A stretch of DNA of 64,000 nucleotides, taken from NCBI RefSeq assembly GCF_001971705.1, contig NZ_CP019327.1, positions 2,976,001 to 3,040,000 of the forward strand. The letters are read 5' to 3'. The notes beneath the pieces are model-generated. The model saw nothing but the letters and a program-made list of their open reading frames with translations, made no database searches and was not told the DNA's origin. Source of the DNA: Natronorubrum daqingense (GTDB lineage: Archaea; Halobacteriota; Halobacteria; Halobacteriales; Natrialbaceae). Below, piece by piece: positions 7,221 through 61,219 of the stretch. A program made the translations under genes and the position numbers. The stretch's first letter is position 1. Every line of letters starts with the position of its first letter.

Positions 7221-7338
7221 CCGTGCGATCGGACCTCAGAGCGCAGGACGAGAGAACCGACGCACCCGAGGCGGGTGGAGAAACCGACCTAATCGACGCG
7301 ATCGACGCAACGAACACAACCGACACACTCGAGACACG

Positions 7339-40196: not shown

Positions 40197-41678
40197 TCAG
40201 GCGTCTGGCCAGCGCTCGATGTAGACCGCCTTGTCGGTGTAGAAGTGGATCATGTCCTCGCCCTGGGCGTGGAGGTCGCCGAAGAACGAGTCCTTCCAGC
40301 CGCCGAAGTGGAAGAACGCCATCGGCGCTGAGGTGCCGACGTTGACGCCGAGGTTACCGATCTCACCCTCGTGTCGGAACTTGCGGGCGTCCGCACCGCT
40401 TCCGGTGAACAGACTCGCCGCGTTGCCGAATCGGCTGCGGTTCATCCGCTCGATCGCGTCGTCGACCGAGTCGACCGAGGCCAGTCCGAGGACCGGGCCG
40501 AAGATTTCCTCTTGAGAGATGGTCATCTCTTCGCTGACGTCGCCGAACACCGTCGGTGCGAGGAAGTTTCCGTCCTCGTGACCGTCGATCTCTGCATCGC
40601 GGCCGTCGAGCAGTACCGTTGCACCCTCTTCGACGCCGGTGTCGATGTAGTCTCGAACGCGCTGTTCGTGTTCCTCGCTGATGAGCGCGCCAATGTCGGT
40701 CTCCTCGTTGAGACCGTTACCGACGACCTGCGAGGCCGTCTCTTCGACGACCAGGTCGGTGAACTCCTCGTAGACGCCGTCTTCGACCAGGACGATGTCG
40801 TTCGCGAGACAGCGCTCGCCCGCACAGGCACACGCCGAGGAGACCGTCTTTTCCGCGGCGAACTCGAGATCAGCCGTCTCGGTGACGATGATGTGGTTCT
40901 TCGCGCCACCCTGGGCCTGCACGCGTTTACCGTTCGCCGCCGCGCGCTCGTAGATGAGCTTCGCGACCGGCGTCGAGCCGACGAACGAGATGCCCTCGAC
41001 GCCCTCGTGATCGATGAGGCCGTTGACCGTGTCGACGCCGCCGTTGACCAGTTGGACGACGCCGTCCGGGAAGCCCGCCTCGTCGATCAGTTCGAACAGC
41101 CGGGTCGCGACGAGTGGGTTCTGCTCGCTGGGCTTGAGAATGAAGCTGTTTCCGGTCGCGACTGCGTAGGGAAGGAACCACAGTGGGATCATTCCCGGGA
41201 AATTAAACGGCGTGATCGCGGCGAAGACGCCCAGCGGTTTGCGAACCGCGCTCTCGTCGATCTCCGGGGCAGCGTTGAGCAGCGACCCCGACTGCATCAT
41301 CGAGGGAATGCCGCAGGCGACCTCAACGTTCTCGATCCCGCGTCGGAGTTCGCCGCGGGCCTCCGCGAGCGTCTTTCCGTGATCCTGGACGAGAAGTTCT
41401 GCGAGTTCGTCTTGGTGTTCCTCGAGCAGCGTCTTGAGCCTGAACAGCGGTTGAATCCGCTCTTCGACGGGAGCCTGGGACCACTCCTCGAACGCCTCGT
41501 TGCCGGCTCGGACTGCCTCGTCGATGTCGGATTCGGAACTGAACGTGACCGAGCCGAGTGGCTCCGTCGTCGCCGGGTTCGAAAGCGCCTGTTCGTCGTC
41601 GCCGGTTGGCGTCTGCCACGCCCCGTCGACGTAGTTTTCGACCGCCTCGGTGCCGTCGGGTTCGCGCAAGTCGACCAT
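40197..41678 (-). CDS. mmsA: Methylmalonate-semialdehyde dehydrogenase (CoA-acylating)
   Basis: Aldehyde dehydrogenase of 493 residues that converts malonate or methylmalonate semialdehyde to acetyl- or propionyl-CoA. It has ITPFNFPGMIPLWFLPYA, the catalytic Cys in CACAGERCLA, and QGGAKNH in place of the ELGGK motif, so the general-base Glu is absent as in MMSDH. ATG 41678 is preferred to the in-frame start at 41690 because it lies 27 nt from GTCTTTATTT. It is divergent from an omega-aminotransferase, which would produce its semialdehyde. Confidence 0.93.
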   Translation of the reverse strand: MVDLREPDGTEAVENYVDGAWQTPTGDDEQALSNPATTEPLGSVTFSSESDIDEAVRAGNEAFEEWSQAPVEERIQPLFRLKTLLEEHQDELAELLVQDHGKTLAEARGELRRGIENVEVACGIPSMMQSGSLLNAAPEIDESAVRKPLGVFAAITPFNFPGMIPLWFLPYAVATGNSFILKPSEQNPLVATRLFELIDEAGFPDGVVQLVNGGVDTVNGLIDHEGVEGISFVGSTPVAKLIYERAAANGKRVQAQGGAKNHIIVTETADLEFAAEKTVSSACACAGERCLANDIVLVEDGVYEEFTDLVVEETASQVVGNGLNEETDIGALISEEHEQRVRDYIDTGVEEGATVLLDGRDAEIDGHEDGNFLAPTVFGDVSEEMTISQEEIFGPVLGLASVDSVDDAIERMNRSRFGNAASLFTGSGADARKFRHEGEIGNLGVNVGTSAPMAFFHFGGWKDSFFGDLHAQGEDMIHFYTDKAVYIERWPDA

Positions 41679-41700
41679 ACGGGGTATCATCTCGACGAGG

Positions 41701-41855: not shown

Positions 41856-43196
41856 ATGACAGACTCGACTCGATCGACGGACGAAGACGGTCGCACCGAC
41901 GTCGAAGCACTCGACAAGGAGTACGTCTTCGGCACGTGGTCCTACCAGAACGAAGTCGATCCGACGGAGGTCGTCGGCGGCGACGGCGTCCGATTCACCG
42001 ACGCACACGGCACCGAGTACCTCGACCTCTCCGGACAGCTCATGTGTTCGAACCTCGGTCACTCGGCCGACGCCGTCGCCGACGCGATGGCCCAACAGGC
42101 CCGGGAGGGTGCGTACTTCGCACCGGGCTTCGCGACCGAGGCTCGAGCGCGCCTCGGCGAGAAACTCGCCGAAGTCACCCCGGGAACCCTCTCGAAGACG
42201 TTCTTCTCGACGAGCGGAACGGAGGCCGTCGAGGCGGCCATCAAGATCGCTCGCATGTACACGGGCAAACAGAAGATCATCTCTCGCTATCGCTCCTACC
42301 ACGGTGCGACCGCCGGCTCGATCAGCGTCACCGGCGACCCGCGACGCCTGAAAGCCGAACCCGGAATGCCGGGGTCGATCAAGGCACCGGACCCCTACGC
42401 CTACGGCTCGACGCTCGATCCCATGGAGAGCCTCGACTACATCGAGGAGATGCTCATGCTCGAGGGCGATACGGTCGCCGCCATCCTCGTCGAACCGATC
42501 GTCGGCTCGAACGGCATCCTCGTCCCGCCCGAGGAGTACCTGCCTCGGCTCAAGGAGATCGCCCACGAGCACGGCGCGCTCTTGATCTGCGACGAGGTCA
42601 TGGCCGGCTTCGGGCGCACCGGCGAGTGGTTCGGCTGTGACGTCTTCGACGTGACGCCGGACATCATGACGATGGCGAAGGGCCTCTCCGGTGCGTACGC
42701 GCCACTCGGCGCGACGATCGTCACTGACGAAATCGCCGACCACTTCGAGGACGAGATGTTCTGTCACGGCCACACGTACGCGGGCCACCCCGTCGCCTGC
42801 GCCGCCGGCCTCGCCGCCGTCGAATCCTACCAGGAACAGAACCTGATCGAACACGCCAGCGACGTCGGCGCGTACCTCGGCGACCGACTCGAGGAACTCG
42901 CCGAATCCCACCCGAGCGTGGGCGACACCCGTGGTGTCGGCCTCTTCCGGGGCATCGAGTTGACGAAAAGCGAGGACGAACGCGTCCCCTTTGGCGAGCG
43001 CTCGGACAAGATTTCGACGGGTTCGACCGTCGTGGACGAGGTCGCCGACGCAGCCGCTGCAGACGGCGTCTACGTCGCGAACATGATCAACACGCTGATC
43101 ATCGCGCCGCCGCTGCCGATCACCGAATCCGACGTCGACGACGCTATCGACGTCCTCGACGACGCGCTCGAGGTCTCCGACGCGGCGATGGACTGA
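41856..43196 (+). CDS. Class III (omega) aminotransferase, beta-alanine/taurine:pyruvate type
   Basis: PLP enzyme of 446 residues. It has STSGTEAVEAAIKIAR, YHGATAG, ICDEVMAGFGRTGEWFG and the PLP Lys in MTMAKGLSGAYAP. Together with the divergent MMSDH it makes a plausible beta-alanine or beta-aminoisobutyrate degradation pair: transamination to a semialdehyde, then oxidation to an acyl-CoA. An Lrp-type regulator lies 104 bp downstream on the same strand and may sense the amino acid. Confidence 0.92.
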   Translation: MTDSTRSTDEDGRTDVEALDKEYVFGTWSYQNEVDPTEVVGGDGVRFTDAHGTEYLDLSGQLMCSNLGHSADAVADAMAQQAREGAYFAPGFATEARARLGEKLAEVTPGTLSKTFFSTSGTEAVEAAIKIARMYTGKQKIISRYRSYHGATAGSISVTGDPRRLKAEPGMPGSIKAPDPYAYGSTLDPMESLDYIEEMLMLEGDTVAAILVEPIVGSNGILVPPEEYLPRLKEIAHEHGALLICDEVMAGFGRTGEWFGCDVFDVTPDIMTMAKGLSGAYAPLGATIVTDEIADHFEDEMFCHGHTYAGHPVACAAGLAAVESYQEQNLIEHASDVGAYLGDRLEELAESHPSVGDTRGVGLFRGIELTKSEDERVPFGERSDKISTGSTVVDEVADAAAADGVYVANMINTLIIAPPLPITESDVDDAIDVLDDALEVSDAAMD

Positions 43197-43300: not shown

Positions 43301-43801
43301 ATGAATCACGATCTCGACGAAACCGATCTCAAAATCCTCGAGGCCGTCGAGGACGACTACGAGCGAAGCCTCGAGGAACTCGCGGAAGAGCTCGATATCT
43401 CGAAATCGACGATCCACTATCGGCTCAACAAACTCAAAGAGAACGACGTGATCTCGACGCCCTCCGTCTCGATCGATCCGAACGCGCTCGGATTGAACAT
43501 GCTGCTCATCACCGAGGTGTCGGTCTCTCACGAGCGGGGCTACGCGGACGACATCGGCGACCAACTCGCCGATATCGACGGCATCGTCGACGTCTACTAC
43601 ACGATGGGCGATGTCGACTTCGTCATCCTCGCTCGCGTCCAGGATCGCGATCAGATGAACACGCTCATCGACGACGTGATCGCCATCGAGGGCGTCAACG
43701 AAACGTCGTCACGGTTCGTCATGCAGGAAGTCGAAACCAACGCCGATCTCATGGGGACGATGTCCGAGGAGATGCGCGAGAACGTGCTCGACGCCGAGTA
43801 A
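43301..43801 (+). CDS. Lrp/AsnC-family transcriptional regulator
   Basis: Regulator of 166 residues. Residues about 6-55 form the helix-turn-helix (LDETDLKILEAVEDD, then LAEELDISKSTIHYRLNKLK). Residues about 62-150 are the RAM ligand-binding domain with GIVDVYYTMGDVDFVI. Lrp proteins respond to amino acids. Position beside the aminotransferase and MMSDH suggests control of that pair. Confidence 0.92.
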   Translation: MNHDLDETDLKILEAVEDDYERSLEELAEELDISKSTIHYRLNKLKENDVISTPSVSIDPNALGLNMLLITEVSVSHERGYADDIGDQLADIDGIVDVYYTMGDVDFVILARVQDRDQMNTLIDDVIAIEGVNETSSRFVMQEVETNADLMGTMSEEMRENVLDAE

Positions 43802-45247: not shown

Positions 45248-46519
45248 TCACTCGAGGGGAAGCGGATCCGGGTCCTCGTAGCCGTTGAGCAGGTTCCGCG
45301 CGATCGTTTTCAGGTGGATTTCCGAGGGGCCTTCGCCGATCCGGCGGACGCGGGCTTCCCGGAGCCACCGCTCGAGGGGGAGGTCGGCGTCGACGCCGGC
45401 ACCGCCGTGGATCTGGACCATTCGGTCGAGAACGGTCCAGAGCGACTCGGTGGTCTGGTACTTGGTGATCGAGGACTCGTGGCGGATGTCCTCGCCGTCG
45501 TCGAATTGCTGAGCGGCGTGGTAGACGGAGTACTTCGCCGCCTGGTAGTCGACGGCGGATTTGGCGATCTTCCACTGGATCGCCTGCCGGTCGGCGAGGG
45601 GCTTTCCGCCGACGGTTCTGTCGTTGGCCCACTCGATGCCCAGCCGGATCGACTGATCGATCGGACCCAGGGAGTTCGCCGCGTAGAGCACTCGAGACTC
45701 GCCGAGACACTCCTTCGCGAGTCCCAGCCCGGAGCCGACCTCGCCGAGGACGTTCGCCGCCGGAACGCGAACGTCGTTGAGCGTCACTTCGAAGGGGTAC
45801 TCAGGCCGGATGACCGGAATCGATCGCATCGAGACGCCGTCGTCGTCGGTCGGGACGAGGAACGCGGTGATGCCGTGGTCGGAGATGTCGTCGCCCTTTG
45901 GCTCCGTTCGCGCGAAGAGGATTAGGAAGTCGGCGTCGCCCGCCCACGAGATGTAGTGTTTGGTTCCGTTGACGACCCACTCCTCACCCTCTTTCGTCGC
46001 CAGCGTCTCCATTCCGCGCGGGTCCGAACCCGCCGCGGGCTCCGTCAGCGCGAAGCAGCTCTGCTTCTCGCCGTCGATACACGGCTGGAAGAAGCGCTCG
46101 ACCTGGTCCTCGTTCGCCGCCCCGAGGTAGGCGGAGGGCTCGCCGACCGTCAGGCCGGGCCCGAGTTCGATCACGCCCAAGCCGGGCTGGTAGAGGCCGA
46201 GTCGGTGCTTCGAGAGCTCCTCGAGGACGACGCAGCGTTCGACCAGACTGAGTCCGCCGCCGCCGTACTTCTCCGGAACGCCCATCGCCCAGAACCCGGC
46301 GTCTTTCGCCTTCTCCCTGAGTCGCTCTCGGTCGTCTTCGGGAATCTTGATCGGGTGCGGTCGAACGTTGTCGGTCAGTTCCGGGTTCTCCGGCTCGAGG
46401 TCGTGGTAGCGATCGATGTCGTCCGCGAGTTCGGTGAGTATCGGCCGAAACTCCTCGTCGACGAAGCGCCGGATCTCCCGGCGAAGCATCGTCGTCTCTG
46501 GTGAGAGGTCGAGCTCCAT
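45248..46519 (-). CDS. Acyl-CoA dehydrogenase, long form
   Basis: Acyl-CoA dehydrogenase of 423 residues, about 45 longer than the other two here because of an extended N-terminal helix region. It has MGVPEKYGGGGLSL, ALTEPAAGSDPRGM, IQIHGGAG-like VQIHGGAGVDADLP and the C-terminal RRIGEGPSEIHLK. The Glu of EGPSE sits at the catalytic position. The first residues are acidic (MELDLSPETTMLRREI); ATG 46519 starts them. It is the last gene of a leftward run with the CoA-transferase-like fusion and the thiol dioxygenase. Confidence 0.9.
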   Translation of the reverse strand: MELDLSPETTMLRREIRRFVDEEFRPILTELADDIDRYHDLEPENPELTDNVRPHPIKIPEDDRERLREKAKDAGFWAMGVPEKYGGGGLSLVERCVVLEELSKHRLGLYQPGLGVIELGPGLTVGEPSAYLGAANEDQVERFFQPCIDGEKQSCFALTEPAAGSDPRGMETLATKEGEEWVVNGTKHYISWAGDADFLILFARTEPKGDDISDHGITAFLVPTDDDGVSMRSIPVIRPEYPFEVTLNDVRVPAANVLGEVGSGLGLAKECLGESRVLYAANSLGPIDQSIRLGIEWANDRTVGGKPLADRQAIQWKIAKSAVDYQAAKYSVYHAAQQFDDGEDIRHESSITKYQTTESLWTVLDRMVQIHGGAGVDADLPLERWLREARVRRIGEGPSEIHLKTIARNLLNGYEDPDPLPLE

Positions 46520-46646
46520 TGTGGTGCAATCGCCGGGACATTTGCGAGAAATTCGCATAAGTGTTGGGGTGTTCACACGGTGCACCCCCGCTGCCCTCGA
46601 GTGAATTTCTATTGTCGGCCGAATTCCGCCGTCGTCGGCTCGAGAG

Positions 46647-48350
46647 TCACTCGAGAGCGGAGAGCGTCTCGAATCCGGAGCGGCGGACGCGGGTTGGATC
46701 GACGCGCTCGAGGGCCTCGAGTTCCTCGTCGGTCGGAAGCGGCGTCTCGTCGACCTCACTCGAGGCGAAGCGCACGTCCCACCCCGTTCGCTCGCGGATC
46801 TCTTCGCGAGAGACGCCGGGGTGGATCGAGACGACCTGCAACTCGCCGTCGCGGCGCTCGAACTCGCAAAGCGGCGTCACGAGGTAGGTGAGGTTCCCCT
46901 CCGCAGTCGTGAAGTCGACCGCGGACGGCAGCGAGCGGGCGCGGTGTTCGGTCCGCCAGGCCCACGCCTCCTCGACGAGGGGGAGCAGGGAGCCCGCACC
47001 GCCGCCGCCGCCGAATTTGACCGACGGCTCCGCCCACGACCCCGCGACGGTGTTGTTGAGCCGCCCGCGCCGGTCGACCTGTGCGCCGCCCACGAACATC
47101 ACGTCGACGCCCCCGCGCGCCGCCAGGTCGAACGCCTCGGGCGAGGAGAAGTGCGCCGGCGCTCCCTCGAGCAGCCGCGCGTCCTCCGTCGAGAGCGGCG
47201 TTTCGGCGGGCGAGCCGTTCATCGCGCCCGACGCGCTCAGGTGGGTCGTCCCGGCTCGCTCGCGCGCCGCCCGAAGGGCGACCGTCGGCAGCGGCGAGGC
47301 GAATCCCTGAAACGCGACGGAGATTTCCTCGAGTCGCCGAGCGATGGCGACGGTCATGACCTCGGCGATCGTACACGCTGCGTTGGGCGCTGGGTCCTGC
47401 GGGTGATCGCTCGAGTCCGTCGTCTTCGAACTTGCAGTGCTCGAGCCCCCTTCGGCGACACCGCCGTCGCTCGAGACCGCCGGCTGGTGAGCCCCCCACT
47501 CGAGTGCGTCCCTCCGGTCGGCGACAGCGCGCTCGCGATAGTGGTCCTCGTCCGGGCCGACGTACTCGGTGATATAGGCCTCGAGATCGCCCGAACTCGC
47601 AGCCTCGAGATACTGCTCGAGGTGTGCGCGGTCGTAGTCGTACCTGCCCGGACAGCTGCACGGATGGGCACCGTCGGGCACTTCGGCGACGGCGTCGACC
47701 AGCACCCCCGGTACGTCGGTCGAGCCGGGATCGTCCGTGAACGTGTCGGCGTCGACCACCCGCTCCGCGGTGACGAAGACCCGATCCGCCGCCTTCGCGA
47801 CGAGGTTTTCGGTGAGGTCCGCGCCGTCGAAGCGAGCGTTACCGTCGGCGTCGGCTTCGGTCGCGTGAATCACGGCGATATCCGGCTCGACCCGCCGAAC
47901 CGCGTACGTCGACTCGCCGGTGAACGGGTCCGACGTCTCCGCGAGGTAGGCGTCTCCGATCTCGAGGAGGTCGCTCCCGTCCAGTCCGGCGATCGGCAGG
48001 AACGGAACGCCCTGCGTCGCGGCGCGCAACGCTGTCGCGACGGTGTAGCACGTCCCCTCTCGAGCCTCGAGCGTGCCGTCCTCGATCGCCCGCCGGGTGT
48101 TCGGCGCGAGGCCGAACGCCTCGAAGCCGACGTAGCCGTAGCACGCCGCCTCGAGCTGTCCCGTTCCGGCGAGGAGGTCGATATCCATCGAGTTCGCGAG
48201 CCCGATCGGGACGAGATCCGAGACGTCCGCCCGGACCAGCTCGCGGACGAACGCCATCGGCGCTCGGTGCAGCGTCTTGCCGCCGAACGCGATCGTCGAG
48301 CCGTCCTCGACGCGGGCCGCGAGGTGCTCGAGGTCGACCACGTCGGTCAT
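46647..48350 (-). CDS. Fused alpha-beta class I CoA-transferase-like protein lacking the catalytic Glu
   Basis: Fusion of 567 residues. Residues 1-287 match an alpha subunit (IAFGGKTLHRAPMAFV, EADADGNARFDG); about 288-324 are a Ser/Gly/Asp linker; 325-567 match a beta subunit (VDVMFVGGAQVDRRGRLNN, FGGGGGAGSLL). The beta catalytic Glu, present in the split enzyme here as YESGTIG, reads LSASGAMNG with Ala373. Loss of that Glu is known for IpdAB, a CoA-transferase homologue that hydrolytically opens a ring. This protein may thus be a CoA-ester hydrolase or lyase. It starts 24 bp after the dioxygenase stop. Confidence 0.88.
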   Translation of the reverse strand: MTDVVDLEHLAARVEDGSTIAFGGKTLHRAPMAFVRELVRADVSDLVPIGLANSMDIDLLAGTGQLEAACYGYVGFEAFGLAPNTRRAIEDGTLEAREGTCYTVATALRAATQGVPFLPIAGLDGSDLLEIGDAYLAETSDPFTGESTYAVRRVEPDIAVIHATEADADGNARFDGADLTENLVAKAADRVFVTAERVVDADTFTDDPGSTDVPGVLVDAVAEVPDGAHPCSCPGRYDYDRAHLEQYLEAASSGDLEAYITEYVGPDEDHYRERAVADRRDALEWGAHQPAVSSDGGVAEGGSSTASSKTTDSSDHPQDPAPNAACTIAEVMTVAIARRLEEISVAFQGFASPLPTVALRAARERAGTTHLSASGAMNGSPAETPLSTEDARLLEGAPAHFSSPEAFDLAARGGVDVMFVGGAQVDRRGRLNNTVAGSWAEPSVKFGGGGGAGSLLPLVEEAWAWRTEHRARSLPSAVDFTTAEGNLTYLVTPLCEFERRDGELQVVSIHPGVSREEIRERTGWDVRFASSEVDETPLPTDEELEALERVDPTRVRRSGFETLSALE

Positions 48351-48374
48351 CGTCTCCCTCCGCGTGCGTTCGAG

Positions 48375-49139
48375 TTACTCATTGGCGGTGTGTTCGATCG
48401 AGTGTCCGCCCTGATCGTAGCTGTGTCCGCCCTCTCCGTGGTCGTGCGCGTGTCCGTGCCCGCCGTGGCCGTGGCCGACTTCCGGGGGCTCGCGGACGTC
48501 CTCGCACTCGACGTTACTGTACCCCGACTGGAACAGTTCGACGTCGTTGTCGTCGGCGCAGAAGGCGTGGCGCTCGATACAGCCCACGTCGGCTCCGAGC
48601 AGGTGGACGCTGACGCTCGGTTCGTCCGAGGTCGTCTCCACCGAGTGGATGTCGTTGTTCGGCGGCTCGAGTCGGTAGAAGTCGCCCCGGCCGTTGTCCT
48701 CGGTCCGCAGGTGCTCGAGTTCCGCGTCGCCTTCGTGGCCGCCGTCGTCGACGCGGCGGTAGAACTCCTCGCGCTGGGTGCCGCCGTAGATGCCGACGAG
48801 CCCCCACGCGAGGTGGTCGTGGATGGGCGTCTCCGCGCCCGGCGGGAGTACGAGGGTGAACAGCGCGAGTTTGTCGCCGAGTCGATAGACCAGCCACTGA
48901 GCGATGTCGCTGCCCATGTCGCCTTTGTCTTCCATGTCGTCCGGCGTCAGGTGCTGGTAGCGTTCTGGCAGCCAGCCGTCCTCCATCAGGAGTTCTTCGA
49001 AGGGCTCCTCGAGGGCGTCGAGCAGGGCCGGAACATCCTCGTGTTCGTCCGCGGTGGCGTGGACGGTGTCGACGAACTCGCGGATTCGGTCGTTCTCGTG
49101 GAAAAATTCCGGGTCTGGTTGCTGATCAGGATCGCTCAT
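48375..49139 (-). CDS. Thiol dioxygenase, cysteine/3-mercaptopropionate dioxygenase-like cupin with His-rich tail
   Basis: Cupin of 254 residues. The iron ligands appear as His107 and His109 (PIHDHLAWGLVGIYGG) and His165 (NNDIHSVE), the three-His pattern of cysteine and 3-mercaptopropionate dioxygenases. HDH followed by WGxxG resembles the bacterial mercaptopropionate branch. It should oxidise a thiol to a sulfinate with O2. Residues about 217-254 form a Gly/His-rich tail (for example GHGHGGHGHAHDHG) that may bind metal. It lies between a threonine-synthase-like gene and the fused CoA-transferase-like gene. Confidence 0.87.
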   Translation of the reverse strand: MSDPDQQPDPEFFHENDRIREFVDTVHATADEHEDVPALLDALEEPFEELLMEDGWLPERYQHLTPDDMEDKGDMGSDIAQWLVYRLGDKLALFTLVLPPGAETPIHDHLAWGLVGIYGGTQREEFYRRVDDGGHEGDAELEHLRTEDNGRGDFYRLEPPNNDIHSVETTSDEPSVSVHLLGADVGCIERHAFCADDNDVELFQSGYSNVECEDVREPPEVGHGHGGHGHAHDHGEGGHSYDQGGHSIEHTANE

Positions 49140-49212
49140 CTAGTTCGTGCGTATCGATACCGTGGGCCATAACAGTTTGCCCGGAGTGTCACTCCAGCCG
49201 GAAGGCCGATAT

Positions 49213-50412
49213 TCAGTCGTCCCTGAATGCAGCGAGTCGGTCCTCGAGCGCCTCTATTTCGACGAGGTCGGCGGAGCCGGAGCCGAGGTGGTCGGTGAGA
49301 CCCGTGCCGGTCGTGACGGCGACGACGTCGTCGCTCGAGTCGATCTCGCCCGCGTCGACCAGCCGTCGAATCCCCGCCAGCGCGGTCGCCGACGACGCCT
49401 CGACGCTGAGACCCGCCTCGCTGGCGAGGGTCCGTTGTGCCTCCAGAATCTCCGGATCCTCGAGGCCGACGGCCGCCCCGTCGGTGTCCTCGATGGCGGC
49501 GAGGGCGCGCGTCCCACTCGGCGGATCGGGATTGCCGATCGAGTAGGCGACCGTCTCGCCGCGTTCGACCCGCGACACCTCGCTCGCGCCGCGGTCGTAC
49601 GCCTCGGCGATCGGGGCGCTGGCCGCCGCCTGCACGGCGTACAGTCGGGGCACGTCCGCGAGGACGCCCGCCGACTCGAGTTCGCGAAGCGCTTTCCAGA
49701 TCCCGCTGAAGTGCCCGCCGCTGCTTGTCGGCACGACGATGGCGTCCGGCGCGTCGGGCGCGAACGACTCGCAGATCTCGAGGGCCGTCGTCTTCTGGCC
49801 CTCGACGCGAAGCGGAACGTCGGAGTTGAGGAAGGCGATGTCTCGCGCCGGACCGATCTCGAGCGTCCGCTCGTAGAGTCGGCCGTAGTCGCCCGCGACC
49901 CGGAGCACCGTCGGATCGAACTGCGAGATCGTCTCGAGGCGGCTCTCCGGGATGTCCTCGGGGACCAGCACGACGCAGGGCAACCCCGACGCAGCGGCGT
50001 AGGCGGACGTGCTGATGGCCATGTTTCCGTGGGAAACGGTGCCGACGGCGTCGACGGCCGGTTCCTCTCGGCCATCAGCTTGCAGCACGGCGAGGCCGAG
50101 CGCGCTGCCGCGGTCTTTGAACGACCCCGTCGGGTTTCCGCCCTCTACCTTGAGGTGGACGCGAGCGCCGGCGAACGCGTCGAGGGACGGCTCGCGAACG
50201 AGCGGCGTCCCGCCGGCCGCCGCGAAGAGCCCGTCGGGCGCGCTCACGGGGAGCAGCGATTCGTAACGCCACATTCCGGGCGCGTCGATCACGTCGTTCC
50301 AGTCGAACGAGTCCGCGTCGGTCTCGAGCCAGAGCGCTTCGCCACAGGAACAGCGAGCGACGAGTCCAGTCTCGCGCGAGCCACAGGCGTAACAGCGACG
50401 CGTCGCGCTCAT
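49213..50412 (-). CDS. Threonine-synthase-like PLP enzyme
   Basis: Fold-type II PLP enzyme of 399 residues. An N-terminal zinc ribbon has Cys7, Cys10, Cys21 and Cys23 (CYACG, CSCGE). The PLP Lys is Lys99 in NPTGSFKDRGSA, and the phosphate loop is PTSSGGHFSGIW. Family members eliminate or replace the side chain of phosphohomoserine; archaeal relatives include cysteate synthase. Placement beside a thiol dioxygenase makes a role in sulfur amino acids possible, but a plain threonine synthase cannot be excluded. Confidence 0.87.
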   Translation of the reverse strand: MSATRRCYACGSRETGLVARCSCGEALWLETDADSFDWNDVIDAPGMWRYESLLPVSAPDGLFAAAGGTPLVREPSLDAFAGARVHLKVEGGNPTGSFKDRGSALGLAVLQADGREEPAVDAVGTVSHGNMAISTSAYAAASGLPCVVLVPEDIPESRLETISQFDPTVLRVAGDYGRLYERTLEIGPARDIAFLNSDVPLRVEGQKTTALEICESFAPDAPDAIVVPTSSGGHFSGIWKALRELESAGVLADVPRLYAVQAAASAPIAEAYDRGASEVSRVERGETVAYSIGNPDPPSGTRALAAIEDTDGAAVGLEDPEILEAQRTLASEAGLSVEASSATALAGIRRLVDAGEIDSSDDVVAVTTGTGLTDHLGSGSADLVEIEALEDRLAAFRDD

Positions 50413-50469
50413 ACGATCACCCGCGGGGTCGCGACGCCCGCTCGAGGTCGAGCAGCTGTGGCGAACGGT

Positions 50470-51108
50470 TCAGAACTCGTGGTCATCGTCCTCAAGGTCG
50501 GCGACGGTCGCGCCGGCGTCGATCTTTTCCTCGATGGTCGACTCCTCCGAACGGATTTCGGCGACGGTAGCGGCGATTTCGCTCGCGCGTTCGGCGGGCA
50601 CGACGACGACGCCGGTTCCGTCCGCGACGATGACGTCGTCGGCCGAGACGGCGACGCCGCCGATGTCGATCGTTCCGCCGACTTCCTCGACGGTCAGTCG
50701 CCGCTGGCCGGTTTTCGGCGTCGGCGCGCGACCGAAGACGGGGAACGATCCGGATCGAATATCCGGGACGTCGCGGTAGCCGCCGTCGACGACCACGCCT
50801 TCGACGCCCGCTCGCTCGGCGAGCACGCAGGCGTTGCCGCCCCAACACGAGAGCTCCGGGCCGACGCCGTCGATGGCGAGGACGCGGTCCGCACGAAGCT
50901 CCTCGAGCAAAGCGTAGGGAAAGTTTGTCTTCGATCCCGGTTCCGAGACGGGTTCGAACCGGAGCGTGTGGACCCGCCCGACCGCTTTCTGTGACGGATC
51001 GACCGCGCCGATTTCGGTCGCGACGCCGTCGATTCCGTACTGGTCTAGCGCGTCGGACACGATACTCGAGTCGACAGTCCTGAACGTCTCGATGACCTCC
51101 GAATCCAT
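50470..51108 (-). CDS. RraA-family protein (HMG/CHA aldolase or oxaloacetate decarboxylase-like)
   Basis: Protein of 212 residues of the RraA/demethylmenaquinone-methyltransferase-like family, which includes class II 4-hydroxy-4-methyl-2-oxoglutarate aldolases. It has SIVSDALDQYGIDG, a DGVGPELSCWGG loop and the metal/substrate motif GVVVDGGYRDVPDIR. ATG 51108 is about 27 nt from the TATA-like CAATTATGTG and begins the conserved N-terminus. It is first in the leftward run ending with the acyl-CoA dehydrogenase and is divergent from a TPP enzyme. Confidence 0.87.
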   Translation of the reverse strand: MDSEVIETFRTVDSSIVSDALDQYGIDGVATEIGAVDPSQKAVGRVHTLRFEPVSEPGSKTNFPYALLEELRADRVLAIDGVGPELSCWGGNACVLAERAGVEGVVVDGGYRDVPDIRSGSFPVFGRAPTPKTGQRRLTVEEVGGTIDIGGVAVSADDVIVADGTGVVVVPAERASEIAATVAEIRSEESTIEEKIDAGATVADLEDDDHEF

Positions 51109-51267
51109 ACGCCACCATCTCTCACGGACAGACACATAATTGCTCGCACGGGTCGCCCGCCGTGTTCGGATTCTCCTCCGACACAGCTGCTACTTGTGCA
51201 ATTCGCGTGGGTCCGTGCTAAAATCACAAACCGAAACGATAAGACCGGCGGGGTGTTTGCTCGAGCC

Positions 51268-52899
51268 ATGGACGTTGCTAGCACGGGGAGTGCGTACATC
51301 CTCGATGCGCTCGGAGCCGAGGGAATCGACACGCTGTTCGGCGTCATCGGCGAAGGAAACGCGCACCTGCTCGACGCGGTCAACGATCGGGACATCGAGT
51401 TCCAGCAGGCTCGCCACGAACAGGCCGGCGTCACGATGGCCGACGGCGCCGCGCGCACGAAACAGGGCGTCACCGCCTGCACGCTCACTCACGGTCCAGG
51501 GGTGACGAACGGCGCGACCGGCATCGCCGCCGCCGACCGCGACAATATCCCGATCGTGATCCTCGTCGGCGATACGAGCATCGAGGGGCGGGAAACGTCG
51601 CTTCAGTACCTCGACCACCCGACGTTCGCGTCGCCGATTTCGGTCTACCAGACGCGGATCGAGACGCCGGTGACGATTCCCGAGGTCCTCGAGCGAGCGT
51701 TCGATCGCGCGAGAACCCGAAGCGGCCCCGTGCTGGTCGAGGTGCCGGCGGACGTCCAGGAGGGCGAGGCTCCCGACGAGGAGTACACGCCGAGTGCACG
51801 GCCGCGCCAGCGGGTGCGACCGGATGAACGCCACGTCGAGGAGGCCGCCTCGTTGCTCGACGATGCGGATCATCCCGTTATCCTCGCGGGCGGCGGGGCG
51901 GTCCGATCCGACGCCGGCCAGGAAATCGCGACGCTCGCCGAACACGTCGGCGCACCAATCGCGACGACGTACTTCGGTCGCTCGCTCCTCGACGAAGCGC
52001 ACCCGATGGTCAGTGGCATCGCGGGCACGTTCATGTCGCCAGCGAACGACGACCTCCTCTGGGACGCCGACGTGGCAGTCGTCGTCGGTGCTCGGCTGTC
52101 GGGCAAGACGACTCGCTACGGCGAGTTGTACGCGGACGCGGACGTGATCCAGATCGACATCGACGAAGAGTCGATCGGCACCCACCAGGAGCCCGCGATC
52201 GGAATCCGCGCCGACGCGCGAGAAACCGTCGCCGACCTTATCCACCGCTGCGAGACGGATCCGGAGCGAGCCTCCAGCGTCGCGCAGACGATCGAGCGGG
52301 CACCCTCGCCGTGGGCCGACGGCTTCGAGGAACGACCCGACCAGATCGACCCCCGCGAGTTCACCCTCGAGCTTTCCGAGCGCGTCCCCGACGACGCGAT
52401 CCTCACCGTCGGCTCGGGGAACAACACCGGGTTCCCCGCCGTCTTTCACGAACTCGGCGCGGACGCCTCGATGCTGATCAACGGCAACTTCGGGACGATG
52501 GGCTACTCGCTTCCCGCCGCGCTGGGGGCGAAAGCGGCCGCGCCGGATCGTCCCGTCGTCTGTTACACCGGCGACGGCGCGTTGATTCAGGTGATTCAGG
52601 AGATCGAAACGGCCGTTCGCCTCGAGTTGCCGCTGCTCGTCGCCGTCTTCAACGACAGCAGCTACGGGATCATCCGCCACCGCCAGAATCTCGTCCACGA
52701 CCGCGAGACGGGGAGCACCTACGACAGTCCGGACTTCGTCGACATCGCCGAAGGGTTCGGCGCGAACGGTGCCGTAATTCGTTCGGCGGACGACCTCTCA
52801 GTCGTCGAGGAGTACTACGACGCAGACCCCGACGTCCCGCTCGTTCTGGACGCGCGAACGATCCCCGAGGTTTCGCGCCCGGGATTCCCGCCGTACTGA
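51268..52899 (+). CDS. Thiamine-pyrophosphate-dependent enzyme, acetolactate synthase-like
   Basis: TPP enzyme of 543 residues. The catalytic Glu is in ARHEQAGVTMADGAAR (about residue 50), the central domain has VILAGGGAVRSDA, and the TPP/Mg motif starts GDGALIQVIQEIE and ends FNDSSYGIIR. No small subunit is adjacent. ATG 51268 is 27 nt from ACGATAAGACC; the frame is open upstream but without homology. It is followed by an aldehyde dehydrogenase, suggesting decarboxylation of a 2-oxo acid to an aldehyde and then oxidation; this is inferred. Confidence 0.89.
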   Translation: MDVASTGSAYILDALGAEGIDTLFGVIGEGNAHLLDAVNDRDIEFQQARHEQAGVTMADGAARTKQGVTACTLTHGPGVTNGATGIAAADRDNIPIVILVGDTSIEGRETSLQYLDHPTFASPISVYQTRIETPVTIPEVLERAFDRARTRSGPVLVEVPADVQEGEAPDEEYTPSARPRQRVRPDERHVEEAASLLDDADHPVILAGGGAVRSDAGQEIATLAEHVGAPIATTYFGRSLLDEAHPMVSGIAGTFMSPANDDLLWDADVAVVVGARLSGKTTRYGELYADADVIQIDIDEESIGTHQEPAIGIRADARETVADLIHRCETDPERASSVAQTIERAPSPWADGFEERPDQIDPREFTLELSERVPDDAILTVGSGNNTGFPAVFHELGADASMLINGNFGTMGYSLPAALGAKAAAPDRPVVCYTGDGALIQVIQEIETAVRLELPLLVAVFNDSSYGIIRHRQNLVHDRETGSTYDSPDFVDIAEGFGANGAVIRSADDLSVVEEYYDADPDVPLVLDARTIPEVSRPGFPPY

Positions 52900-53060
52900 C
52901 TGCTGTCCCTGTCGATTTTGGGTTCGGCCACTGTCGACCACTGCTCTCGCCATCTCTGTTCTGTCGTGTTCCCGACCGGTTTCGCCGCCGATTTCAGGAT
53001 CTCGTGTACGACACGCACCGGTGCAAAATACTAATCAGCACTCGAACACACGTCTGAACC

Positions 53061-54527
53061 ATGGCGACACACAGCGCGAACGATCGCGATCAGTACGGCC
53101 TGTTCATCGACGGGACCGAAAGCGAGTCGGCGTCCGGAGAGACGATTTCGGTCGTCGACCCCGCGACGGAAGAGCCGTTCACGTCGATCCAGGCCGGATC
53201 GGCGTCCGACGTCGACCGCGCGGTCGACGCCGCACTCGAGGGCCAGACGGAGTGGTACGGACTCGCACCCGCCGAACGGGGTCGGATACTGCGCCGAGCG
53301 TCGGATCTCATCGCAGACCGACGCGACGAACTCGCCCGACTGCTGACTCGCGAGAACGGGAAACCGATCTCGCAGGCGCGGACCGAAATCGACGCCGCCA
53401 GCCGGTACTTCGAGTACTACTCGGGAATGGCGGACAAAATACAGGGCGAGACGATCCCCCTCGGTCGCGAGTACGTCGACTACACGATTCAGGAACCACT
53501 CGGCGTTACCGGTCACATCATCCCCTGGAACTTTCCGGCGGCGATCTTCGGTCGGACCGTCGCGCCGGCGCTCACCGCCGGCAACGCCGTCGTCGTCAAG
53601 CCGGCGGAACAGACGCCGCTGACGGCACTCGAGTTCGCTCAAATACTCGACGAGGCGGGCGCTCCTTCCGGGACGGTCAACGTCGTCACGGGATACGGCG
53701 TCGACGCCGGCGAACCGCTGACGGAACACGAGGACGTGAGCTGCGTCGCGTTCACGGGCTCCGTCGAGACCGGCAAAGCGGTCGCAGCCGCCGCTGGCCG
53801 ACAGCTCACGCCCGCACACATCGAAGCCGGCGGCAAGAACCCGAACGTCGTCTTCCCGGACGCCGACCTCGAGCAAGCCGTCGAGCAGACGCTGATCTCG
53901 ATCTTCACGCGAAACGCGGGACAGGTCTGCTCGGCCGGGGACCGTCTGATCGTTCACGAAGATATCCGCGAGGCGTTCCTCGAGCGACTCGTCGAGGAGG
54001 TCGAGTCGCTCGAGGTCGGCACCGGCCTCGACGATCCGGACATCGGACCCCTCGTCTCCGAAGCGCAGTACGAGACGGTCAGCGAGTACATCGAGATCGG
54101 CTCGAGCGAAGTCGGCGAGCCGATCGTCGGCGGCGCTCCCGAGGAGACGGAGGACGGCTACTTCGTCGAGCCGACAGTATTCGACGGCGCGAGCAACGAC
54201 GACCGAATCAGCCAGGAGGAGATCTTCGGCCCCGTCCTCACCGTGATCCCGTTCAGCACCGAAGCCGAGGCAATCGAACTCGCCAACGACAGCGAGTACG
54301 GCCTCACGGCGGGTATCTTCACCACCGACCTCGAGCGCGCTCACCGGTTCGCCCGCGACGTCGTTGCCGGCCAGGTGTACGTCAACGAGTGGTTCGCCGG
54401 CGGCGTCGAGACGCCCTTCGGCGGCTTCCGCGAGAGCGGCTTCGGTCGCGAGAAGGGCCTCGAGGCGGTAGAACAGTTCACGGCCACGAAGAACGTCGGG
54501 TTGAAGATCGGCGACGGCCCGTCGTAG
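53061..54527 (+). CDS. Aldehyde dehydrogenase (NAD(P)-dependent)
   Basis: Aldehyde dehydrogenase of 488 residues. It has PWNFPAAIFGRTVAPALTAG, the catalytic Glu in IEAGGKNPNVV, and the nucleophilic Cys in NAGQVCSAGDRL. It oxidises an aldehyde to the acid. It follows the TPP enzyme by 161 bp, with a TATA-like AAAATACTAAT before ATG 53061. Similar to succinate-semialdehyde and betaine-aldehyde dehydrogenases; substrate not assignable. Confidence 0.93.
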   Translation: MATHSANDRDQYGLFIDGTESESASGETISVVDPATEEPFTSIQAGSASDVDRAVDAALEGQTEWYGLAPAERGRILRRASDLIADRRDELARLLTRENGKPISQARTEIDAASRYFEYYSGMADKIQGETIPLGREYVDYTIQEPLGVTGHIIPWNFPAAIFGRTVAPALTAGNAVVVKPAEQTPLTALEFAQILDEAGAPSGTVNVVTGYGVDAGEPLTEHEDVSCVAFTGSVETGKAVAAAAGRQLTPAHIEAGGKNPNVVFPDADLEQAVEQTLISIFTRNAGQVCSAGDRLIVHEDIREAFLERLVEEVESLEVGTGLDDPDIGPLVSEAQYETVSEYIEIGSSEVGEPIVGGAPEETEDGYFVEPTVFDGASNDDRISQEEIFGPVLTVIPFSTEAEAIELANDSEYGLTAGIFTTDLERAHRFARDVVAGQVYVNEWFAGGVETPFGGFRESGFGREKGLEAVEQFTATKNVGLKIGDGPS

Positions 54528-54549: not shown

Positions 54550-55326
54550 TTATTTTCCGTCGAACTCCGGTTCTCGCCCCTCGAGGAAGGCCTCCGCCCC
54601 CTCCTTCTGGTCGTCCGTCGCGAACAGGAGCGCGCTCGCGAGGCGCTCGAAGTCGAGTCCGGCCTCGATGTTCAGACTTCGGTCCATGGCCTCTTTGGCC
54701 AGTTGCTGGGCGATCGGCGCTCTCGAGGCGAGTTGCGTCGCCAGCTCCCTGACTTCCTCGTCGAACTCTTCGTCGGGGTAGACGTGGTTCACGAGCCCGA
54801 TATCCTCGGCCTCGTCGGCGTCGACGGTTCGTCCGGTGAGGATCAACTCTCGAGCGAGGCCGGACCCGATGGCGTGGACCAGTCGTTGCGTCCCGCCGCC
54901 GCCGGGAATGATCCCGATGGTGATCTCTGGAAGGCCGAACACCGCGTCGGGGGTCGCGAGCCGGATGTCACAGGCGAGCGCGATCTCGGTTCCGCCGCCG
55001 AGGGCGTAGCCGTCGACCGCGGCGATCGTCGGCTTGGGGACGTCCGCGACGTAGTTGTACAGCGCCTGTCCGTGCGTCTCGCCGTACTCGAGGCCGTCGA
55101 CGAGATCGTATTCGGAAAAGGCCTCGATATCGCCGCCCGCGACGAACGAGCCCTCGCCGGCTCCACGGAGGACGATCGCTCGCACGTCGTCATCGTCGAC
55201 GGCGGTTTCGAACGCCGCTCGCAGCTCTTTTCGGGTCGCGACGTTCATCGAGTTGCGTTTCTCCGGTCGGTTGACGGTGATCGTCGCGATTTGCTCGCGT
55301 CGCTCGAGAAGCACTCGATCGCTCAT
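54550..55326 (-). CDS. Enoyl-CoA hydratase
   Basis: Classical crotonase of 258 residues. It has GSFVAGGDIEAF (oxyanion hole), the first catalytic Glu in LGGGTEIALACD and the second in FGLPEITIGIIPG, 20 residues apart. It should hydrate 2-enoyl-CoA to 3-hydroxyacyl-CoA. A TATA-like AGTATTATACG is about 27 nt before ATG 55326. It is convergent with the aldehyde dehydrogenase and lies downstream of the CMD-family gene. Confidence 0.94.
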   Translation of the reverse strand: MSDRVLLERREQIATITVNRPEKRNSMNVATRKELRAAFETAVDDDDVRAIVLRGAGEGSFVAGGDIEAFSEYDLVDGLEYGETHGQALYNYVADVPKPTIAAVDGYALGGGTEIALACDIRLATPDAVFGLPEITIGIIPGGGGTQRLVHAIGSGLARELILTGRTVDADEAEDIGLVNHVYPDEEFDEEVRELATQLASRAPIAQQLAKEAMDRSLNIEAGLDFERLASALLFATDDQKEGAEAFLEGREPEFDGK

Positions 55327-55436: not shown

Positions 55437-55976
55437 CTACTCGCCCTCGAGGTCCCAGCCGACGAACGAATCCTCGAGTGGGACCTCGAGCGCGCTCAGG
55501 AACCGGGCCGTCGCGAGGTAGTGCGTAGCGATCAGCGTGATGCCGACGATTTCCGTGGGCTCGAACCACTCCGAGAGGGCGGCGAATCGGTCGTCATCGA
55601 CCTCGTCGCGGACGACGGCCTCGACGTACCGGAGCAGCGCGGTCTCCCGTTCGTCGAACCGGTCTCGGTCGCCGTCGGCGATGGCGAGGATCTCGTCGTC
55701 CGAGACGCCGCTTTCCCGAGCGATCGGGACGTGCTGGTGCCACTCGTAGACCGCCTCGAGTTCGCGGGCGATGGTGAGGATGCAGCGCTCGAGGTCGTCC
55801 GCCTCGAGGCCGCCGTCGGACCACAGCGTGGTTCCGTAGCGCATGTACGACTGCAACGCGTCGGGGTTGTTCGCCATCGCACAGAGGAGGTTGAGCTCGC
55901 CCAGCGCGTCCTCGCCGAGGAGGTACTGGTAGTCGTCCGGGAGGTCGTCCTGTCGCCTGAGTGGAACGCGCGCCAT
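55437..55976 (-). CDS. Carboxymuconolactone decarboxylase-family protein
   Basis: All-helical CMD/AhpD-fold protein of 179 residues. The conserved region is LERCILTIARELEAVYEWHQHVP-like (key residues Glu, Tyr-Glu-Trp and His), without the CxxC pair of peroxidase-type AhpD, so a thiol peroxidase role is unlikely. It may be a lactone decarboxylase relative. ATG 55976 follows a TATA-like AAGGATACC. It lies between the IclR gene and the enoyl-CoA hydratase on the same strand. Confidence 0.85.
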   Translation of the reverse strand: MARVPLRRQDDLPDDYQYLLGEDALGELNLLCAMANNPDALQSYMRYGTTLWSDGGLEADDLERCILTIARELEAVYEWHQHVPIARESGVSDDEILAIADGDRDRFDERETALLRYVEAVVRDEVDDDRFAALSEWFEPTEIVGITLIATHYLATARFLSALEVPLEDSFVGWDLEGE

Positions 55977-57205: not shown

Positions 57206-58621
57206 ATGGCACCCATGGATCAGGAAGCCTACGACGTCGTTATCGTCGGGTGTGGCATCGCTGGACTGACTGCCGGATTACGCGCCACGGAACAGGAGTA
57301 CTCGGTCGCGATTCTCGAGAAAGCGCCGGAGGCGAATCGCGGCGGCCACACGCGCTTTACCGAGTCGTTTCGCATCCCGACGGCCGATATCGACCTCACG
57401 GACGTCGAGTTCAACGTCGAGGACTACACGGCCGCGGACTTCTACTCGGACATCATGAACGTGACCCACTACCGGGCGGACGACGACCTCGCCTCGGTCG
57501 TCACCGGCGAGGCCGCGTCGACGTTCGAGTGGCTGACCGCCCACGGCCTCGAGTGGGAGTACGACGCCCCACACCCGGGTTACACTGCCGGTCGGGTCTG
57601 GCTCGACGGCGCGGAGATGATCGCCGAGATCGTGGACGTTCTCGAGGCCGAAGGCGTCGACATCTACTACCGGGCGGACGCTCGCGGGGTGGTGAGAGCC
57701 GACGACGGCTCCGTCTCCGGCGTGGAGGCCTTCGTGGACGGCCGCCGAACGGAGTTTTCGGCCGACGCGACGATTCTCGCGGCGGGCGACTACGGCTCGA
57801 GCACCGAGAAGCGAACGCGCTACTACGGCCCCGGCTACGGGAACATGAAGGTCCGCGGCAGCCGGTACAACACCGGCGAGGTCATCGAGGCGGCGATGGA
57901 CGTCGGCGCGAAATCGGCCGGCGAGTTCGGCGACGCGCACATGGCCCTGATCGACGCCGGCTCGCCCGACGTGGAGGGCGGAATCACCCGAATCGACGGC
58001 TATCAGTACGGCCTGATTCTCAATCACGACGGCGAACGATTCGTCGACGAAGGGCAGGACGCACGCGCCCACACCTACGCCAAGTTCGGCCGGCGGATCT
58101 TCGAACAGCCCCACCACGAGGCGTTCATCGTCGTCGATTCGACCGTCGTCGACGACGTGGCCCACATGGGTCCCTCTCGAGCAATCCAGGCCGACTCGCT
58201 CGAGGGACTCGTTCGCCGCCTCGACATCGCGAACGTCGAGCGCGCCGTCGAGACGATTCGAGAGTACAACGAGGCCTGCGACCCCGACGCGAGCGACAAC
58301 TACGACCCGAACGTCCTCGACGGCAACGCGACCGAGGGCCTCGAGTTACCGAAGTCGAACTGGGCGCTTCCCCTCGAGGAACCACCCTACACCGGCTATC
58401 CCGTTACCGGCGGGATGACGTTCGGTTTCGGCGGCGTCGCGATCACCCCCGACGCCGAGGTCCTCGATACGACCGACACCGTGATTCCGGGTCTGTACGC
58501 CGCCGGAAACGTCACGGGCGGGTTGTTCTACAACAACTACCCGGGCGGCACCGGCCTCACCAATGCCGCCGTCTTCGGAAAGGTCGCGGCCGAATCCGTC
58601 GCCGAGTACCTCGAGTCCTGA
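57206..58621 (+). CDS. FAD-dependent oxidoreductase, tricarballylate dehydrogenase (TcuA)/fumarate-reductase-like
   Basis: Flavoprotein of 471 residues. The FAD motif is VVIVGCGIAGLTAGLRA, followed by the TcuA-like EANRGGHTRFTESFR; the middle contains GYQYGLILNHDGERFVDEG and the C-terminus GMTFGFGGVAIT and NNYPGGTGLTNAAVFGK. The family oxidises or reduces C-C bonds of di- and tricarboxylates. No TcuB-like electron partner is adjacent, so the acceptor is unknown. ATG 57206 (or 57215) starts just before the FAD motif. Likely controlled by the divergent IclR. Confidence 0.88.
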   Translation: MAPMDQEAYDVVIVGCGIAGLTAGLRATEQEYSVAILEKAPEANRGGHTRFTESFRIPTADIDLTDVEFNVEDYTAADFYSDIMNVTHYRADDDLASVVTGEAASTFEWLTAHGLEWEYDAPHPGYTAGRVWLDGAEMIAEIVDVLEAEGVDIYYRADARGVVRADDGSVSGVEAFVDGRRTEFSADATILAAGDYGSSTEKRTRYYGPGYGNMKVRGSRYNTGEVIEAAMDVGAKSAGEFGDAHMALIDAGSPDVEGGITRIDGYQYGLILNHDGERFVDEGQDARAHTYAKFGRRIFEQPHHEAFIVVDSTVVDDVAHMGPSRAIQADSLEGLVRRLDIANVERAVETIREYNEACDPDASDNYDPNVLDGNATEGLELPKSNWALPLEEPPYTGYPVTGGMTFGFGGVAITPDAEVLDTTDTVIPGLYAAGNVTGGLFYNNYPGGTGLTNAAVFGKVAAESVAEYLES

Positions 58622-59920: not shown

Positions 59921-61219
59921 TCACTCCGAGACGAACGCTTTCGTCCCGTCGTCGAACTCGAGTCGCTCGCGCTCGAGGACGCTCACGTCCTCGGAAATCT
60001 CCTCGAGCAGGGCCGGCGAGACGTGCATCTCGGAGAGCTCGGTGGTGTTCTCGATCCACGCGACCCTCACGGTCTCGGGATCGTAGCCGCCGAGCGCGGA
60101 GAGCGCGGTTCGGATCGCGAGTTCGTCGTCCGGGGCGACGACGGGGAGTTGTGCCTTCGACAGCGAGCCGCTGGTCAGCGCGTTCGCGTAGGTCTTTTGG
60201 AGGTCGAGTTGCTCGATCGCGTCCCGTCGCGTGATGTCGCTCAGACCGATGCCGTTACCGTTACCCTTCGTACTCTCGGTGAGCCCGCGGGCGTAGATGA
60301 GGTCGATCGCGGGCGTCTCCGGATCGGGGGCGTTGAGCACCTGATACCGGCCGATGACGTTCGTGTCCATGCCGGCGCCGGAGATCTCCTTGCCGATCTC
60401 GTCGACGACGAGCAAGTCGAGGTCGTCCGTCGGCAGCGTCGCCATCTCCGCTCTGGCCCGTGCGAGTAACTCGGGCTCTCGCTGCTCGAACGCCGAAGCC
60501 GAGACGCCCTCGATGTGCGCCGTCTCCTCGTCGAAGTTCTCGACGAGCGCGATCCCGCCCAGCAGCGGCGTCTCCTCCCTGACGACGGAGAGCAGCGCCT
60601 CCATCGTCTCGACGTAGCCGTGTCGGATCGCCGTCGAGTGAAACGACTTCGCGCCGGGTTGCTTCCCGAGGCCGACGACGCTCATCTTGCACAGCCCGCT
60701 CTCGAGTTTCCCCGTGAAGTTCGTGTGCGGTTTGACGCGATTGAGAACTATCACCCCGTCCGCCTCGCGAGCGACGCTCGAGAAGGAAACCGTCGTCTCC
60801 GTCCCGCCGACGGTCACCTCGCCGAGTTCGTCGACGGCCATGTCGGCGTCGATGGGCGCGCCGACGCTCGACTCCGTGACGCCGAGGGCCTCGAGGAGTT
60901 CGAGTTGGCCCTCGGGCGTCGCCCCGCCGTGACTGCCCATCGCGGGGACGACGAGGGGCTCGAGGTCTCGGGCCTTCAGCGCCGAGACGATTTCCTCGAC
61001 GTAGGCCTCGAGGTAGTGAATGCCGCGACTGCCGACGCCGACGGCGACGGTCGAACCGGGCTCGAGGTCGTCGAGGGGCAGTTCGTCGAGTTCCGAACGA
61101 ATCGTCTCGAGGGGATCGGAGACGGTTTCGGCCGACGGTTCGTACGCCACCCGAACGAACGGCGGCAGCGGTTGTGGGTCGATCAGGTCGTCCACGTGGG
61201 CTCGAGTGGGAAACTCCAT
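59921..61219 (-). CDS. LarA-like (DUF2088) nickel-dependent racemase-family protein
   Basis: Protein of 432 residues related to lactate racemase LarA. Visible are VGVGSRGIHYLEAYV, the His-containing VPAMGSHGGATPEGQ (compare LarA His108 region) and VKPHTNFTGKLESG with His and Lys like the nickel-pincer region. Such enzymes racemise or epimerise 2-hydroxy acids. No larB, larC or larE cofactor genes are in the window. It converges with the cupin gene and is divergent from the enolase pair. Confidence 0.83.
   Translation of the reverse strand: MEFPTRAHVDDLIDPQPLPPFVRVAYEPSAETVSDPLETIRSELDELPLDDLEPGSTVAVGVGSRGIHYLEAYVEEIVSALKARDLEPLVVPAMGSHGGATPEGQLELLEALGVTESSVGAPIDADMAVDELGEVTVGGTETTVSFSSVAREADGVIVLNRVKPHTNFTGKLESGLCKMSVVGLGKQPGAKSFHSTAIRHGYVETMEALLSVVREETPLLGGIALVENFDEETAHIEGVSASAFEQREPELLARARAEMATLPTDDLDLLVVDEIGKEISGAGMDTNVIGRYQVLNAPDPETPAIDLIYARGLTESTKGNGNGIGLSDITRRDAIEQLDLQKTYANALTSGSLSKAQLPVVAPDDELAIRTALSALGGYDPETVRVAWIENTTELSEMHVSPALLEEISEDVSVLERERLEFDDGTKAFVSE

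Follow-up and report, generated by a model that had tools for sequence, protein, structure and literature searches.

A tyrosine-less thiol dioxygenase homologue among ordinary catabolic genes of the haloarchaeon Natronorubrum daqingense

Do the five adjacent leftward genes at positions 45248–51108 of a 64,000-nucleotide stretch of Natronorubrum daqingense DNA (contig NZ_CP019327.1, positions 2,976,001 to 3,040,000; hereafter, the window) form a pathway for a sulfur-containing acid, as a preliminary description of the sequence had proposed? All on the minus strand, they encode an RraA-superfamily protein (50470–51108), a pyridoxal phosphate (PLP) enzyme of the threonine synthase fold type (49213–50412), a thiol dioxygenase homologue (48375–49139), a fused A+B protein of the class I CoA-transferase fold (46647–48350) and an acyl-CoA dehydrogenase (ACAD; 45248–46519). 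The description had placed them exactly, with gaps of 57, 73, 24 and 127 bp, and its broad family labels agree with our searches (RraA-like, PF03737; PALP; CoA_trans twice in one protein; acyl-CoA dehydrogenase). Since all five are kept in identical order, at 91–98% identity per gene, in a congener (genome G197), we consider them real genes. The answer to the question is divided. Ordinary catabolic genes surround an unusual dioxygenase, and the sulfur idea survives for the dioxygenase, a relative of thiol dioxygenases with bacterial clade members near organosulfur genes, and not for the pathway of the Advenella/Variovorax type that had been named.

The dioxygenase homologue gave no Pfam-A match at an E-value of 1e-3; against the PDB, it matched 3-mercaptopropionate dioxygenase (3MDO) with E=4e-20. 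A ColabFold model built from 39 sequences (pLDDT 85.5) had 3MDOs as its best structural matches, at a target-normalised TM-score of about 0.8. The Fe-binding histidines of thiol dioxygenases are present (H107, H109 and H165, invariant in the clade), and R190 corresponds to the carboxylate-binding Arg168 of 3MDO. Small-molecule thiol dioxygenases carry an outer-sphere Ser-His-Tyr motif (PMC8050391, PMC10966181), which was not found here: the sequence has S177-H179-L181, with Leu181 at the position of 3MDO Tyr159. Among distinct homologues, 61 read HHH-S-H-L-C-R-H, where C187 and H191 are invariant additions of the clade, and one more reads likewise where covered; three outgroup sequences have Tyr. 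In a tree of 69 rows, the 61 with Leu and the 8 with Tyr formed separate groups, with support of 100/99. The Leu ('SHL') clade has members from Halobacteria and several bacterial phyla, in a sample that was gathered with patterns from the window protein and is biased to close relatives, so that intermediates may exist. The alignment and tree suggest that the dioxygenase belongs to a widespread, single and well-supported Tyr-less branch of the thiol dioxygenase family, apparently undescribed. The ADO and PCO thiol dioxygenases also lack the Ser-His-Tyr motif, which has been described as not catalytically essential (PMC8503633), and its loss is therefore compatible with thiol dioxygenase activity. 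The enzyme probably oxidises a sulfur-containing acid.

The neighbouring fusion had been called an atypical CoA-transferase, and the residue comparison bears this out: in its B half, the catalytic Glu of class I, seen as YESG in paralogues, is replaced by Ala (SASG), as it is in the homologues from G197 and from a genome of another genus, G264. The equivalent of AibB Glu72 is kept (STED). For the B half, the match to AibB (E about 1e-24) is stronger than those to GctB (1e-13) and IpdB (1e-8); the A half has a score similar to GctA, and a structure model was too poor for use (pLDDT 48). These residues indicate that the fusion is probably a decarboxylase or C–C hydrolase rather than a CoA-transferase. 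AibB Cys56Ala still decarboxylates, and because this variant resembles the Ala state of the fusion, a decarboxylase is compatible with the substitution (PMC7756340). Given that Glu-less homologues such as ThnP can act as intramolecular transferases, decarboxylation is here a preference and not a result (PMC11659651). The window also holds a second CoA-transferase A/B pair (6339–8073, plus strand), with an intact catalytic Glu (YESGTIG) and related to the GctAB of a haloarchaeal cluster with a thiamine pyrophosphate (TPP) enzyme, HpaI and CaiB.

Comparison within the genus indicates that the dehydrogenase belongs with other genes. In a second Natronorubrum genome (G194, which we take to be N. 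aibiense, with the locus on plasmid NZ_CP045490.1), genes for a short-chain dehydrogenase/reductase (SDR), a carboxymuconolactone-decarboxylase-family protein (CMD), an enoyl-CoA hydratase (ECH), the ACAD, an Lrp/AsnC regulator, a class III aminotransferase and a CoA-acylating methylmalonate-semialdehyde dehydrogenase (MMSDH) are contiguous, and ACAD directly adjoins ECH. Identity to the window is 80% for ECH, 89% for ACAD, 88% for the aminotransferase and 87% for MMSDH, and the dioxygenase was not found in the N. aibiense genome. The window holds this set of genes too, but six others spanning 8 kb (46647–54527), absent from the contiguous set in N. aibiense, separate ACAD from ECH (54550–55326, minus): those for the fusion, the dioxygenase, the PLP enzyme and the RraA-type protein, and, divergent on the plus strand, an acetolactate-synthase-like TPP-dependent enzyme (51268–52899) and an aldehyde dehydrogenase (53061–54527). 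Further genes of the older module lie on both sides: CMD at 55437–55976 (minus), the Lrp/AsnC regulator at 43301–43801 (plus), the aminotransferase at 41856–43196 (plus) and MMSDH at 40197–41690 (minus; TIGR01722, 527 bits against a cut-off of 448.5). We favour the reading that the locus joins two units, with the 8-kb module placed inside an older island for carboxylic- and amino-acid degradation, and prefer insertion to loss in N. aibiense. The G+C content of the module is slightly above that of its surroundings (0.675 against 0.64–0.65), a weak signal.

Part of the module recurs in G264, which encodes the dioxygenase (67–69% identity), the CoA-transferase-like A (72%) and B (79%) parts as two genes and the aldehyde dehydrogenase (71%). 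An HpaI-type aldolase adjoins the dioxygenase there, and the PLP gene is absent from the cluster. Thus, dioxygenase, CoA-transferase-like protein and aldehyde dehydrogenase occur together in one other genus. The module did not turn up more widely: among the 391 genomes of the class, the search gave, besides the window, only G197 and one 32% match (G388). The preliminary description had proposed checking the gene order across haloarchaea: no such conservation was found, an outcome that it had listed as counting against its own reading, as orthologues of the CoA-transferase-like gene occur only in G197 and G264 and the five-gene order only in the near-identical G197.

The same description had the run led by one good promoter box. 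A promoter-like TTATG box does lie 31 nt before the RraA-type gene (51135–51139, minus), and it is not the only one. Others precede the dioxygenase by 33 nt (49168–49172, minus; like the first, recognised by consensus only) and the dehydrogenase by 41 nt (46556–46560, minus). The last, AACACTTATGCGAA, is similar to its N. aibiense counterpart, AACAGTTATGTGAA, despite the change of neighbouring genes. Because of these further boxes, one of them kept in N. aibiense, a single transcript for the five genes is not implied, and a single five-gene operon is unsupported, the dehydrogenase having its own box and belonging to the other module.

The PLP enzyme had been likened to archaeal cysteate synthase, an assignment that we rejected on its score against TIGR03844 (51.3 bits, cut-off 324.9). 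Against the threonine synthase model TIGR00260 it is at the borderline (167.5 bits, cut-off 167.1); five further homologues occur in the genome. We also discarded it as a partner of the dioxygenase, since its 68% orthologues occur in other contexts. The RraA-type protein carries the motif G-X20-R-D-X2-D of the HMG/CHA class II pyruvate aldolases, in the exact form reportedly given by Mazurkewich et al. in 2014. Where an RraA-family protein has a motif of this sort, it is in most cases believed to be a class II pyruvate aldolase (PMC5065237).

We give a probability of about 50% to the reading that, in the inserted module, the Tyr-less dioxygenase turns a mercapto-carboxylate into a sulfinate and the other module enzymes process the carbon skeleton. 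With Fe(II) and O2, the dioxygenase would most likely act on a substrate whose carboxylate is held by R190, with no outer-sphere Tyr. The carbon skeleton would then probably pass through the aldolase, the TPP enzyme as a decarboxylase, the aldehyde dehydrogenase and the CoA-transferase-fold decarboxylase or C–C hydrolase. Sulfite may leave spontaneously, as it does from sulfinosuccinate (PMC5373536), or in another step.

The dioxygenase was present in 13 of the 391 genomes of the class and in 14 of the 125 genomes of the family. Clade members in several genomes have sulfur-related neighbours. In Nostoc these include an SsuA that scores above its cut-off, together with an SsuD-like monooxygenase; elsewhere they include a metallo-lactamase–rhodanese protein overlapping the dioxygenase (locus L036), a Cys/Met-metabolism PLP enzyme (L040), a homocysteine S-methyltransferase (L020), a cystathionine beta-synthase in Acidobacteria and a rhodanese in a haloarchaeon (G268). 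Bacterial clade members often adjoin genes of sulfonate, rhodanese, homocysteine or cystathionine functions, which keeps a thiol substrate likely. Several points count against the main reading. The association comes from a neighbour listing without a random-neighbourhood control, and other clade members, most haloarchaeal ones included, have unrelated neighbours. Haloarchaeal homologues stand in varied catabolic contexts (a C–P lyase operon, TPP/HpaI/CaiB clusters), mostly with no sulfur genes nearby. The annotated genes of the island (about 35–61 kb) include none that we recognised as handling sulfite. Insertion as one unit, although favoured over loss, rests on a single same-genus comparison. 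Finally, a published sequence logo has the His and Tyr conserved in small-molecule thiol dioxygenases, and the chemistry of an enzyme without this Tyr could therefore differ (PMC10966181). The lost Tyr and the haloarchaeal neighbours, together with the HpaI, RraA-type or class II aldolases that adjoin clade members in several lineages, would also suit a carboxylic-acid pathway free of sulfur. The cupin would then have a non-thiol chelate as its substrate, for instance a hydroxy or oxo acid, and the CoA-transferase-fold protein would serve as a decarboxylase or hydrolase. The sulfur-related neighbours listed above and the full retention of the three His, the Ser-His pair and the Arg of 3MDO speak against such a pathway, which we regard as possible but doubtful.

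If the substrate is a thiol, it might be cysteine or a relative, bound through thiolate and amine, with transamination of the product giving an unstable 2-oxo-3-sulfinate, from which sulfite is lost, and with the PLP enzyme and the aldolase acting on amino or oxo acids. In 3MDO without the Tyr159 hydroxyl, cysteine binding indeed shifts to thiolate and amine (PMC10966181); PLP and aminotransferase genes are close by, and sulfur amino-acid enzymes adjoin clade members in some bacteria. This route is unlikely, however, given that the carboxylate-site Arg is kept, that the PLP enzyme falls below the cut-offs for cysteate and cysteine synthase and that its gene is missing from the G264 cluster. 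Less likely still is 3-mercaptopropionate degradation of the Advenella/Variovorax type, in which 3MDO, CoA activation and a desulfinase of the acyl-CoA dehydrogenase family follow each other. A 3MDO-like dioxygenase and an acyl-CoA dehydrogenase do share one run, and Diaphorobacter has a genuine cluster of this type, with a class III CoA-transferase, an annotated desulfinase and a Tyr-type dioxygenase. The Diaphorobacter desulfinase, however, has AGGTAQ at the catalytic-Glu site, whereas the window dehydrogenase retains the Glu (GEGPSE), as had been noted from the sequence, and scores 155 bits against 600 for the desulfinase model; on these two results we rejected it as a 3-sulfinopropionyl-CoA desulfinase. 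The dehydrogenase is moreover conserved without the dioxygenase in N. aibiense, as part of the older module, and the window dioxygenase lies in a clade apart from the Tyr-type enzymes. The CoA-transferase-like protein lacks the catalytic Glu and is of the class I fold (PF01144); the five-gene run contains no class III enzyme, the rest of the genome not having been searched for class III or SucCD. It had also been stated that a CoA-transferase activates 3-sulfinopropionate in Advenella. Activation there is in fact by the SucCD ligase, and the organism with the CoA-transferase Act is Variovorax (PMC5373536, PMC6370202). By analogy with the expulsion of CO2 by AibAB, the Glu-less fusion could itself be the desulfinase of a new archaeal mercapto-acid route, expelling sulfite from a sulfino-acyl-CoA via an enolate after the Tyr-less dioxygenase has made the sulfinate. 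We hold this to be very improbable; if true, the fold would be new among desulfinases.

Other associations of the clade were recorded. The dioxygenase closes a C–P lyase (phn) gene run on a Halorientalis litorea plasmid (NZ_CP095483.1; L136), is paired with a cyclase-family gene in several Actinomycetota (L032, L034, L039 and L041) and adjoins a 140-aa cupin-like protein in three haloarchaeal loci (L114, L115 and L116; G240 and G243). A recurrent haloarchaeal cluster (L053, 1589–9801, in G142; also G238, G239 and G240) combines a TPP enzyme, HpaI, a D-2-hydroxyacid dehydrogenase, an acyl-CoA dehydrogenase, an MFS protein, the dioxygenase and mostly CaiB. The acyl-CoA dehydrogenase of this cluster type lacks the C-terminal catalytic Glu; in G142 and G240 a Glu stands at what we take to be the isovaleryl-CoA-dehydrogenase-type position. 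The pairs of class III CoA-transferase and dehydrogenase in these two genomes were rejected as a true desulfinase route, the dehydrogenases scoring 187–195 bits against 600. Elsewhere in the window, a FAD enzyme (57206–58621, plus) exceeds the cut-off of the model for TcuA, tricarballylate dehydrogenase (430 against 369 bits), and a nickel-pincer-cofactor-dependent isomerase of group 22 (59921–61219, minus; 487 against 400 bits) adjoins an SDR and the TcuA-like gene.

The Leu clade, spread over Halobacteria and several bacterial phyla, provides natural test cases for the role of the Tyr in substrate choice and O2 coupling. Two gene modules that resembled one operon can now be told apart, and the locus cautions that family names alone are insufficient for calling a CoA-transferase or a desulfinase. 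Compared with 3MDO of the cysteine dioxygenase family (Azotobacter 6XB9, Pseudomonas 4TLF), the window dioxygenase has the same fold and three Fe ligands, the Ser-His part of the motif and a counterpart of Arg168; it differs in the Leu at Tyr159, the extra invariant C187 and H191, an identity of about 28% and the lack of a Pfam-A match. Like the clusters of Variovorax, Advenella and Diaphorobacter, the window has homologues of a thiol dioxygenase and of an acyl-CoA dehydrogenase close to each other; unlike them, its run has neither a class III CoA-transferase or SucCD nor a Glu-less desulfinase. The RraA-type protein shares its motif with the HMG/CHA aldolase of the RraA superfamily, yet it scores under all equivalog cut-offs. 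The fusion resembles the 3-methylglutaconyl-CoA decarboxylase AibA/AibB of M. xanthus and the hydrolase IpdAB in having a CoA-transferase fold without the catalytic Glu, and its B half, closest to AibB, shares the Glu72 equivalent; unlike AibAB, it joins the two subunits in one protein and has Ala where AibB has Cys56.

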